A stretch of 64,000 nucleotides of DNA. Source: Carboxylicivirga fragile. GTDB lineage: Bacteria > Bacteroidota > Bacteroidia > Bacteroidales > Marinilabiliaceae. The notes beneath the pieces are model-generated. The model made no database searches. It was not told where the DNA came from and saw only the letters and a list, made by a program, of their open reading frames with translations. The translations under genes and the position numbers were made by a program. The stretch covers positions 1-64,000 of the forward strand of contig JAFMVD010000018.1 in the NCBI GenBank assembly GCA_025499625.1. The letters are read 5' to 3'. Below, piece by piece: positions 50,599-53,845 of this stretch (positions within the stretch are counted from its first letter, which is position 1; each line of letters starts with the position of its first letter).

Positions 50599-50635
50599 AA
50601 ACGGTTGACATCGCTTTAAGCGATGTCATCCGTTT
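50599..50635 (+). repeat. REP hairpin downstream of the RAYT gene
   Basis: Stem AAACGG/CCGTTT, a small internal loop, then GACATCGCT/AGCGATGTC with a three-base loop. The unit GACATCGCT-nnn-AGCGATGTC-ATCCGTTTA is repeated at 51295-51323 in the same orientation. It overlaps the stop codon of the transposase gene. Confidence 0.8.
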
Positions 50636-51248
50636 AATATTCTAGAAGAAGGCTTTGCCTTTCTTTATGAATACAGTTGTGGTAATTGTTAAAAGTGCCA
50701 AGATCTTCAAAAAAAGAGAGCCCATGTGCCTTATTTATTATTCCTTCATGATGGCTAGTATAGTGTTTGTAAGAACTATGGGTGTAGGTTTTATAATCTA
50801 ATTCAATGTGTTTTGTGGGGTTGTGATGAATGTAAAAAATGAGATATTTGATATATTCATCATCTTCGATCATAATGCGTTTAAAAGGTCTCTCAAAAAG
50901 TGACCCTGTTCTGTTTTCTTGTTTGTTAATTGCCTGAGAGTATGAAACAAAAAAACGTCTGAATTGATTGGAGAAGTACTTGTTTATTTCAGATTCTCCG
51001 CTTAGAGTTTTATATTTATTATTATCTACCTGTGAGATTTTTTCAGGTATTTGTATTAAAAAATGAAAGTGGTTTAACAACAGACAATAAGCCAATACAT
51101 CACACTCATTTAAGTATTTGTCAAGTTGCCTAAGGAAATAGTTATAGTTCTCTTCTCGAAAGAAAATCTTCGTGCTATTAATGCCTCTATTGAATAGATG
51201 ATAATATTTTCCTGGCAGTAAGGGAGTTTTTGTTTTAAGTGAGGGCAT
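50634..51248 (-). CDS. REP-associated tyrosine transposase (RAYT)
   Basis: Y1/HUH transposase-like protein of 204 residues. It has the N-terminal PGKYYHLFNRGINSTKIFF strand, the HUH motif in LLNHFHFLIQIP, and the catalytic Tyr region IKYLIFYIHHNPTKH. RAYTs act on REP/BIME hairpins in their own genome. Exactly such hairpins, near-identical in sequence, lie on both sides here. It is presumably single-copy and domesticated. The reading frame is complete. Confidence 0.92.
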   Translation of the reverse strand: MPSLKTKTPLLPGKYYHLFNRGINSTKIFFREENYNYFLRQLDKYLNECDVLAYCLLLNHFHFLIQIPEKISQVDNNKYKTLSGESEINKYFSNQFRRFFVSYSQAINKQENRTGSLFERPFKRIMIEDDEYIKYLIFYIHHNPTKHIELDYKTYTHSSYKHYTSHHEGIINKAHGLSFFEDLGTFNNYHNCIHKERQSLLLEY

Positions 51249-52048: not shown

Positions 52049-52056
52049 TATCTTTG
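52049..52056 (+). promoter_or_regulatory. -7 promoter element of the pyrBI leader
   Basis: TATCTTTG, an exact TAnnTTTG match. Transcription would start near 52061, about 280 bases before pyrB. No TTG -33 is evident. Confidence 0.5.
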
Positions 52057-52065
52057 AACCCCGGA

Positions 52066-52317
52066 ATGAGACAAGAAGAAAACAAATATTTTCGACTTAG
52101 AAACCAAAGTTATCATCCGGATAATAATGGTAAAATTGCTTTTTTCTTTTCATTCATTTCACGATTAACAATTGAGCAATTTATTTTTTTTAAAAATATA
52201 AAAGACCTGATTTTTCCATCAGGTCTTTTTTTTGTGCCTCAATTTGTAGCAATAAAATCGTCTAAGATTCAAAACCAAAGTAGAACAAACCATATAGAGT
52301 TATGCTATCAGGTGTAA
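52066..52317 (+). CDS. pyrB leader ORF running through the attenuator
   Basis: Frame of 83 codons starting MRQEENKYFRLRNQSY. It crosses a U-rich mRNA stretch (52139-52160, coding AFFFSFIS) and then the terminator hairpin at 52201-52232, and ends 21 bases before the pyrB start. No family is recognised. E. coli pyrBI has a similar leader peptide gene that spans a U-rich pause site and the attenuator, and coupling of translation to transcription there responds to UTP. The layout here fits that model. The ORF could also be fortuitous; the ATG is only a few bases after the predicted transcription start. Confidence 0.45.
   Translation: MRQEENKYFRLRNQSYHPDNNGKIAFFFSFISRLTIEQFIFFKNIKDLIFPSGLFFVPQFVAIKSSKIQNQSRTNHIELCYQV
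52201..52233 (+). terminator. Attenuator-like terminator in front of pyrB
   Basis: Eleven-pair perfect stem AAAGACCTGAT/ATCAGGTCTTT with a six-base loop, followed by eight T. It lies between the likely promoter and pyrB, so full termination would silence the operon; a regulated attenuator is the best reading. Confidence 0.8.
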
Positions 52318-52338
52318 TTAACAGGTAAATTTTATACA

Positions 52339-53247
52339 ATGAAGAACAAAAGTTTAGTTTCCATTACAGATTTCTCGAAAGAGGAAATCCTTCGCATTGT
52401 GGAGTTAGCAGCAGAGTTTGAAGCCAATCCTAACCAAAAGTTATTGGATGGGAAAGTGGTATCGAGTCTTTTCTTTGAACCATCAACGCGTACTCGCTTG
52501 AGCTTTGAAACAGCCATAAACCGCTTAGGTGGTGGCATTATCGGTTTTACCGATTCGTCTTCTTCATCTACCACAAAGGGAGAATCGCTAAAGGATACCA
52601 TTAAAATGGTAAGTAGTTATAGCGATTTAGTTGTAATGCGCCATCCATTGGAAGGATCTGCACGTCATGCTTCTGAACAGTCATCTGTGCCTGTTATCAA
52701 TGCTGGAGATGGTGCTAATCAACATCCAACACAAACTTTACTTGATCTTTATTCAATTTATAAAACTCAAGGTACTTTAGAGAATCTGAATATTTTCTTG
52801 GTAGGAGACTTAAAATATGGACGTACAGTTCACTCATTGTTGATGGCTATGTCGATGTTTAATCCAACTTTTAACTTTATCTCACCTGATTCGTTAAAGA
52901 TGCCAGATGAGTACAAGTTATTCCTTGATAAAAAGGGAATTAAATACTACGAGCATTTAGAGTTTACTGATATTATTGAGGCAGCTGACATTCTTTACAT
53001 GACACGTGTTCAACGTGAACGCTTTTCAGATCCTATCGAATATGAGAAGGTGAAGAATGTATACGTACTACGTAATGCCATGTTAGATAATACGAAAGAT
53101 AATCTTCGCATCCTTCATCCACTGCCAAGGGTAAACGAAATTCACACCGATGTGGATGAAAACCCAAAAGCATACTACTTTGAACAAGCCGAAAATGGTG
53201 TATACGCGCGTATGGCCATTATGTCATCAATATTAGGATTGAAGTAA
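52339..53247 (+). CDS. pyrB: Aspartate carbamoyltransferase catalytic chain
   Basis: Second step of pyrimidine synthesis: carbamoyl phosphate plus aspartate to carbamoyl aspartate. Size 302 residues. Carbamoyl-phosphate site [13 protein letters not shown] (about 45-57), HPTQTLLD, the aspartate-site MTRVQRERF and [14 protein letters not shown] are all present. The regulatory chain pyrI follows after 37 bases, giving the allosteric holoenzyme. The leader ahead carries an attenuator. Confidence 0.97.
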
Positions 53248-53284: not shown

Positions 53285-53740
53285 ATGCCTAAAAAAGAGT
53301 TAAGTGTAAGCGCTATAAAAAACGGAACTGTAATAGATCATATTCCGGCAACACATTTATTTAAAGTGATTTCCATTTTGGGTTTAGATAAAAGTGAAAA
53401 CCAAATAACCTTTGGTACCAACCTAAAAAGTAAGTTGCAAGGTCGCAAGGCCATTATTAAAGTAGCTAAAAAGTATTTTGCCGATGAGGACATTAACAAG
53501 ATATCGCTTGTTGCGCCTCACGCTAAACTGAATATCATCAAGGATTACAATGTAGTTGAGAAGAAGACTGTAGAAATCCCTGAAAACATTATTGGTATAG
53601 CTAAGTGTTTTAATCCAAAATGCATTACCAACAATGAGAACATGGTAACTAAGTTTGCCTTGGTAGAAAAAGAGCCTATTGCTTTAAAGTGTCAGTATTG
53701 TGAGAAAATTACAAATGAAGAGCATCTAGAAGTACTATAG
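53285..53740 (+). CDS. pyrI: Aspartate carbamoyltransferase regulatory chain
   Basis: Regulatory subunit of 151 residues. The N-terminal allosteric domain (VSAIKNGTVIDHIPATHLFKVISIL) binds nucleotides; the C-terminal zinc domain has the four Cys (CFNPKC ... CQYC) that tie it to the catalytic chain. Together with pyrB it forms the c6r6 complex, where CTP inhibits. A terminator follows. Confidence 0.97.
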   Translation: MPKKELSVSAIKNGTVIDHIPATHLFKVISILGLDKSENQITFGTNLKSKLQGRKAIIKVAKKYFADEDINKISLVAPHAKLNIIKDYNVVEKKTVEIPENIIGIAKCFNPKCITNNENMVTKFALVEKEPIALKCQYCEKITNEEHLEVL

Positions 53741-53760
53741 ATAGTGTTTATTGCAAATTA

Positions 53761-53797
53761 AAAAATCAGAGAAGTATCAGTTTCTCTGATTTTTTTA
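53761..53797 (+). terminator. Terminator after pyrI
   Basis: AAATCAGAGAA with TTCTCTGATTT, eight-base loop, then a long T run. Confidence 0.8.
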
Positions 53798-53845
53798 TGC
53801 CTTTCTCTTAAACAAAAGAAGTATCAATATAAGAATCGAAATCGC

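Follow-up and report, generated by a model that had tools for sequence, protein, structure and literature searches.

Organization of the pyrBI leader

The window, a 64,000-nt stretch of the Carboxylicivirga fragile genome, carries on its forward strand two genes that are taken, by their sequence, to be pyrB (52339–53247) and pyrI (53285–53740), encoding the catalytic and regulatory subunits of aspartate carbamoyltransferase. Upstream of pyrB, the sequence TATCTTTG (52049–52056) fits the consensus TAnnTTTG of a −7 promoter box. Nine bases, AACCCCGGA, separate this box from an ATG at 52066 and contain the predicted transcription start region, CCCCG (52059–52063), with +1 placed at the C at 52061 and the first purine being the G at 52063. 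The ATG opens a leader ORF of 83 aa (52066–52317), a length of frame reached in just 11 of 20,000 mononucleotide shuffles. It begins 273 nt upstream of the pyrB ATG at 52339 and closes with a TAA that ends at 52317, 21 nt 5′ of that ATG. The longest version of the frame would start at a TTG at 52054, a position within the −7 box that the transcript would not include, leaving the ATG at 52066 as the usable start.

The leader ORF runs through an intrinsic terminator (52200–52233, −15.1 kcal/mol) consisting of a 12-bp stem at 52200–52229, AAAAGACCTGAT-TTTTCC-ATCAGGTCTTTT, and a run of eight T (52226–52233) that overlaps its end. Two U-rich tracts precede it: GCTTTTTTCTTTTCATTCATTTC at 52138–52160, a putative RNA polymerase pause region, and AATTTATTTTTTTT at 52178–52191, directly 5′ of the terminator, where a U-rich block stands at the same place in the alignment. 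The T content reaches 0.52 in the last 60 nt before the terminator, as compared with 0.29 in the first 150 nt of pyrB. A second predicted hairpin, resting on the genus alignment and on the complementarity tests described below, would form at the very 5′ end of the RNA, its 5′ arm (52061–52069) comprising CCGGA, a bulged A and the TGA of ATGA, and its 3′ arm (TCA TCCGG, 52113–52120) lying within the leader ORF. The leader region as a whole folds more stably than its dinucleotide shuffles (z = −3.3).

The initial annotation had listed a −7 element, an ORF start, a U-rich tract, a terminator with eight T and the pyrB ATG in this order, all of which stands, the U-rich tract included. The stem has 12 pairs rather than the 11 claimed, and the ORF does cross the terminator and stop just before pyrB, as proposed, provided that it is read from the ATG and not from the TTG of the longest frame.

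Two neighboring features complete the locus. Directly 3′ of pyrI, at 53760–53800, another clear hairpin with a T run (AAATCAGAGAA...TTCTCTGATTTTTTT) probably marks the end of the operon. On the minus strand, an ORF at 50634–51248 resembles a gene for a REP-associated transposase-like protein.

Conservation of the leader reading frame

Relatives of pyrB were collected from four sources: 80 loci on genome contigs, the window's family, a sample of the order and a sample of the phylum. The family search found true pyrB in 66 of 71 genomes, of which 64 were fetched, fragments in G063 and G066 being left out. The order search gave 113 matches, two of them already in the set; 60 of the other 111 were taken, the remainder having lower identity. 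In the phylum sample, a search limited to E ≤ 1e-60, which hides weaker relatives, finds window-type pyrB in 4 of 99 genomes, one of them being the window's own; the other three have E values between 3e-62 and 7e-64. Removal of regions with identical last 200 nt reduced the total from 207 to 192, and ten family members are thus counted under genome contigs. Two of the 192 regions, L064 with no usable upstream sequence and L060 with only 127 nt, were scored as leader-less. A region was assigned the box/ATG arrangement if it held the box, an ATG at 7 or 9 nt and an ORF of at least 15 aa.

Of 60 such regions, 53 have a detected terminator 3′ of the leader ATG, and 7 of the 65 box/ATG rows are without a detected one. 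Among the 58 rows that have one, the ATG frame continues uninterrupted beyond it in 41, as compared with none for frame +1 and three for frame +2; these rows include a second, spurious box of L092, and for L087 the finder took an upstream hairpin. When the set is reduced to about one locus per genus, the ATG frame passes the terminator in 16 of 21 loci and neither of the other frames does so in any, and all 21 leaders come within 12 nt of the stem or go further. Overall, 52 of 53 leaders extend at least as far as 12 nt before the stem, and nearly all of those that do not pass it stop at its foot or inside it. The exception is L056: its box-linked ORF ends 76 nt short of the stem, and a different ATG, located 25 nt further on, starts a frame that crosses it. 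Four loci without a terminator in the main count (L010, L013, L023 and L032) have long ORFs that end 3–10 nt before pyrB, and in L032 another terminator finder does report one. One observation that, according to the initial annotation, would refute its proposal was a frame not conserved among relatives; the frame is conserved. This conservation would go unexplained under control of pyrB by PyrR or a riboswitch, a most improbable alternative for other reasons as well: an Rfam scan of the window at the gathering score returns only a tRNA, with no match on the leader, and the window's genome has no PyrR over the family cut-off, two weak hits scoring 22.8 and 20.2 bits versus 138.

Substitution and gap patterns place the constraint more precisely. 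For the part 5′ of the terminator, eight close genomes give a dN/dS of 0.43 in frame versus 0.95 and 0.83 out of frame; after the terminator the corresponding values, 0.70 in frame and 1.05 and 0.49 shifted, show no frame preference. An alignment of 15 loci (14 genomes of the window's genus and G029, the nearest neighbor) contains three gap events between the ATG and the end of the terminator, all of 3 nt, and gaps of many lengths thereafter. As judged from these sequence comparisons, the leader is under coding-type constraint up to the terminator. The constraint within the genus, as reflected in the dN/dS of 0.43, is also what would be seen if the ORF encoded a small functional protein and the terminator were incidental or its own. 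This explanation is very unlikely, given that the peptides differ between genera (by eye) while position, frame and terminator persist, and that no frame-specific constraint appears beyond the terminator, where the frame is still open. As regards a run of codons for a regulated amino acid, the hallmark of amino acid leader-peptide attenuators, by inspection only Phe recurs clearly among the leader peptides, as expected of U-rich RNA.

In 21 of 22 loci, 15 of them belonging to the window's genus and its nearest neighbor, no stop interrupts the frame beyond the terminator until 27 nt or less from pyrB, as compared with 3.6 expected from shuffles and 5 of 44 for the other frames; the count takes in loci with a frame that passes the terminator and a tail of at least 60 nt. 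In 9 of the 15 loci of the genus set, the stop is a TGA that overlaps the pyrB ATG. Ribosomes thus appear to be needed as far as pyrB, a hint that the leader is also translationally coupled to that gene. In an extreme form of this idea, the leader ORF would do nothing but boost pyrB translation by ribosome hand-over (reinitiation), with the terminator a minor filter. The frame kept open without amino acid constraint after the terminator and the overlapping stops are consistent with such a role, which has been proposed for close leader genes in many bacteria, Bacteroidetes included (PMC4833913). As a full account it is nevertheless improbable, because it leaves unexplained both the strong terminator kept inside the frame (53 of 60 regions) and the U-rich stretch that precedes it.

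The U-rich stretch before the terminator

In 23 loci, the T content of the final 60 nt ahead of the terminator is 0.425, versus 0.305 in the earlier leader (Wilcoxon p = 0.0015) and 0.291 in pyrB (p = 8e-6), some genera being represented twice in this test. Shuffles of each leader reveal a discrete U tract beyond composition in only 6 of 21 loci, and the U richness is therefore better described as a trend across the entire stretch than as a fixed element.

A predicted near-leaderless start

The distance between box and ATG is in most cases the same. In a count of all ATGs 0–59 nt from a TAnnTTTG, made over the final 420 nt upstream of pyrB in 134 regions that include related genomes, the ATG lies exactly 9 nt after the box in 45 cases and at 7 nt in 10, and every other distance accounts for 5 or fewer. 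In Flavobacterium psychrophilum, the sigma-A box is reported at −12 to −5 (PMC9723704), and by analogy the leader ATG is predicted at about +6, with a 5′UTR of ~5 nt. 5′UTRs this short are uncommon in the phylum: leaderless transcripts are put at 5.5% in F. psychrophilum (PMC9723704) and 5′UTRs under 10 nt at ~3.7% in Bacteroides thetaiotaomicron (PMC7366714).

The bases on either side of the predicted start also follow a pattern. Distinct start sequences, taken as the nine-base spacer with the ATG and one further base, number 30. All of them have a pyrimidine at the predicted +1 and 29 have one at +2; +3 is a purine in 29 (G in 24), +4 is a purine in 27, and +5 is A or T in all 30. For comparison, 86% of starts in B. 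thetaiotaomicron are reported to be A or G. All 14 genomes of the genus have the full motif, TAnnTTTG-NN-YYYY-RR-W-ATG, at pyrB. As a general promoter signature it was rejected: 13 of its 27 matches in the genus are not at pyrB, and 11 of these 13 fall inside open frames of at least 287 codons, the reversed control of the motif giving 9 matches. The window's genome has two matches, one at pyrB and one inside a 551-codon open frame, and the upstream regions of its carA and pyrE, when inspected, were without the motif. The shorter pattern TAnnTTTG-N9-ATG occurs 193 times in that genome (G000) versus 130 for a reversed control, and other genes there may have ~5-nt 5′UTRs as well.

One explanation for a pyrimidine-rich start is that UTP-dependent reiterative transcription at a T run controls initiation, the leader serving only as an attenuator. 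T runs do occur in many start regions (e.g. TTTTTTGAT and GTTTTTGAT), and the reported behavior of E. coli pyrBI, carAB and upp provides precedent. This mechanism is unlikely here, because such a run is missing from both the window (CCCC) and the majority of its genus (CTCC) and because it does not account for a downstream arm that covaries with the start sequence, as described next.

A predicted, covarying hairpin on the first bases of the RNA

The start pattern YYYY-RRW-ATG is complementary to a site inside the leader ORF, and the two sides change together. The pair is TCCGGA/TCCGGA in most of the window's genus and TCTAGA/TCTAGA in Marinifilum; elsewhere it is TTCGGA/TCCGAA (L084), TTTCGGT/ACCGAAA (L102), TTTAGAA/TTCTAAA (L099), TTTGGA/TCCAAA (L107) or TTCTGA/TCAGAA (L133). 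Start sequences pair better with their own downstream sequences than with swapped ones, with p = 5e-5 for 34 loci (the floor of 20,000 permutations), p = 2e-4 and 1.4e-4 for 21 loci that are not strictly one per genus, and p = 0.0019 for 18 loci, one per genus. In a sliding 7-nt window from −24 to +12 of the ATG, the 18 loci yield p = 0.0012, 0.0004 and 0.0002 at −7, −6 and −5; the effect fades at −4 and −3 (0.008 and 0.041) and elsewhere falls below 0.05 only at −12 (0.015). The corresponding values for the 21 loci are 0.0012, 0.0006 and 0.0018, with 0.043 at −12 and 0.028 at −8. The peak at −7 to −5 places the pairing at the predicted first bases of the RNA.

Other tests of the same pairing give weaker results. 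Single-locus shuffles are weak, with p ≤ 0.05 in only 8 of 65 rows, and within the genus there is too little variation for covariation to register, 160 of 500 shuffles being as good by both-side changes and 64 of 500 by score. Perfect 6-base complements show no clear excess at the 5′ end (own versus swapped, 6 versus 6.1 at −7, 9 versus 5.7 at −6 and 4 versus 4.0 at −5), and a larger excess appears further upstream (7 versus 1.6 at −20). The start of the best 3′ arm varies widely across loci, from 5 to 68 nt after the ATG, and lies at 50 nt in most of the genus. In some loci (L048, L111 and L128) the AUG lies in the hairpin loop rather than in the stem. Initiation in Flavobacterium johnsoniae is reported to be tuned by secondary structure around the start codon (PMC6847099), and a hairpin at the leader AUG should therefore matter.

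There are two main readings of what the hairpin would do. It might form part of a two-layer switch, in which the choice of start site within the pyrimidine run decides whether the hairpin can close over the leader start codon, and leader translation then decides termination: RNA would begin with C or U at +1/+2 when CTP and UTP are plentiful and with G at +3 or +4 when they are scarce. This amounts to E. coli pyrC-type control on top of a pyrBI-type attenuator. The near-invariant pyrimidines at +1 and +2 and purine at +3, set against the preference for A or G starts in B. thetaiotaomicron, fit this reading, as does the mapping of the pairing to the predicted first bases; moreover, E. coli pyrC has the same layout, TCCGGC...GCCGGA, and its start is reported to shift with the GTP/CTP ratio (PMC7818426). 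Folding predictions are less favorable. With the start moved from +1 to +3 and then +4, predicted AUG pairing goes from 0.76 to only 0.62 and then 0.25 in the 15 loci of the genus and its nearest neighbor, and from 0.48 to 0.42 and 0.37 in 27 other loci, such that the predicted opening of the hairpin by a start at +3 is a weak effect, and the loci with the AUG in a loop likewise speak against the switch. On balance, the switch is a tentative reading, less likely than not.

Alternatively, the hairpin may be a polymerase pause or 5′-end stability element that synchronizes polymerase and ribosome, with no sensing through the start site. Pause hairpins are part of classical attenuators, and such an element would tolerate the widely varying distance between the arms. 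Confinement of the pairing to the extreme 5′ end, often including the AUG, is harder to reconcile with this role, which we regard as somewhat unlikely.

A model for translation-controlled attenuation

The position of the ATG, the frame through the terminator, the open frame to pyrB, the U-rich stretch and the 5′ covariation are each shown by comparison of related sequences. Together they make it probable that transcription of pyrBI is governed by an attenuator under translational control, one that part of the Bacteroidales has conserved. In this mechanism, RNA polymerase would start at the pyrimidine run ~5 nt before the leader ATG, and a ribosome would load on the nearly leaderless ORF and follow the polymerase as it slows in the U-rich stretch before the terminator. 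A ribosome close behind would block the terminator hairpin, allowing pyrBI to be transcribed; with no ribosome close behind, the terminator would form and transcription would stop. Low UTP would presumably raise read-through by slowing the polymerase. The 5′-terminal hairpin would pair the first RNA bases with a site in the ORF, taking in the start codon as well in many species; it should gate ribosome loading, and it might answer the CTP or UTP pool via start-site choice.

A more ambitious reading combines these elements into a two-input nucleotide sensor run by RNA polymerase and ribosome alone, with no regulatory protein. Under this hypothesis, the pyrimidine start tract would set closure of the 5′ hairpin over the leader AUG via CTP/UTP start choice, the U-rich tract would set ribosome proximity by UTP, and the open ORF would hand the ribosome to pyrB. 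As a whole the proposal is speculative and, although worth entertaining, more doubtful than the attenuator itself. If true, it would join two devices that E. coli keeps on separate operons.

Relation to known leaders

The closest counterpart is the pyrL leader of E. coli pyrBI, which precedes the same operon and likewise has a leader ORF across an intrinsic terminator and a U-rich stretch before it. The initial annotation had drawn this parallel, including the end of the ORF beside pyrB, and the comparison of relatives strongly supports it. The two leaders differ in detail. The E. coli ORF encodes 44 aa and ends 3 nt before pyrB (MG1655), as compared with 21 nt in the window, and leaders passing the terminator in the present set encode 40–120 aa; by eye, they have no peptide or other sequence in common with pyrL. 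The initial annotation took such differences as a hint of independent evolution, which is one possible history. Here, the ATG lies ~5 nt from the predicted 5′ end of the RNA, with an extra predicted 5′-terminal hairpin at the start codon; E. coli pyrBI is not known to have such a near-leaderless start or 5′ hairpin. These two features, which the initial annotation missed, make the system more than a copy of that of E. coli. At the E. coli operon, a UTP-sensitive pause and a need for tight coupling at pyrL have been described (PMC7818426, PMC5021804).

The 5′ end resembles instead pyrC and pyrD of E. coli and Salmonella, in which a pyrimidine start is also followed by purines and the first bases are complementary to a downstream site. 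In E. coli pyrC, the resulting hairpin is reported to hinder ribosome binding (PMC7818426). The pyrC/pyrD hairpin stops translation of the enzyme gene, whereas the one proposed here would hide the AUG of a leader ORF that governs a terminator, and for this reason the leader is not classed with the pyrC/pyrD type.

Leaders of other kinds also occur within Bacteroidota. Bacteroid-trp RNA is a trp attenuator. It is listed as a Bacteroidetes motif (RF01692, PMC2864571), and leader-peptide attenuation has been proposed for amino acid operons of F. psychrophilum (PMC9723704). In the accessible text of the latter source, “pyrB” occurs 0 times and the pyrB leader does not appear; likewise, “pyrimidine” and “aspartate carbamoyl” occur 0 times in that of PMC2864571, which to that extent describes no pyrimidine leader. 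No account of a pyrB attenuator in Bacteroidota was found in the open-access literature searched. Distinctive here is pyrBI-like logic in a lineage for which this search gave no report, together with the predicted near-leaderless start and 5′ hairpin.

To our knowledge, little is known about transcription–translation coupling in Bacteroidota. Conservation of the frame through the terminator is evidence, of an evolutionary kind, for a ribosome travelling near enough to the polymerase to make a difference in this phylum, whose members are described as being without Shine–Dalgarno sequences (PMC6847099). It also points to a way in which bacteria outside Proteobacteria may sense their pyrimidine supply with no regulator protein, and the combination of a near-leaderless start with a hairpin on the first RNA bases makes the role of start-site choice directly testable.

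Distribution and history of the arrangement

The box/ATG arrangement is found in 36 of 54 family regions and 19 of 80 genome-contig regions (including those of the ten dropped family duplicates), in 5 of 55 order-sample regions, and in none of the 3 phylum matches. None of the 5 order-sample regions has an ORF that passes a detected terminator, and the presence of the arrangement in so few regions of this sample indicates that pyrBI can do without the leader. A pyrB tree of 106 rows contains 42 that have the arrangement, and these belong to Marinilabiliaceae, Marinifilaceae, Prolixibacteraceae, Odoribacteraceae and Barnesiellaceae, the last two represented by one row each; all seven Bacteroides rows lack it. 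Its distribution needs 12 changes on this tree (11 forced by supported branches), versus a mean of 33 when shuffled, and is compatible with either one ancestral gain followed by losses or several gains.

Four Bacteroidales regions without the arrangement (L037, L039, L041 and L192) carry a nearly identical strong terminator (AAAACCGAAAG...CTTTCGGTTTT and a T run) ~75 to 45 nt before pyrB, slightly different in L037, which is perhaps a different pyrB attenuator. In three further regions (L005, L020 and L105) the last base of the box is changed (TAnnTTTA) with the ATG still at 7 or 9 nt; the ORF extends past the terminator in L020 and L105 and stops just before it in L005.
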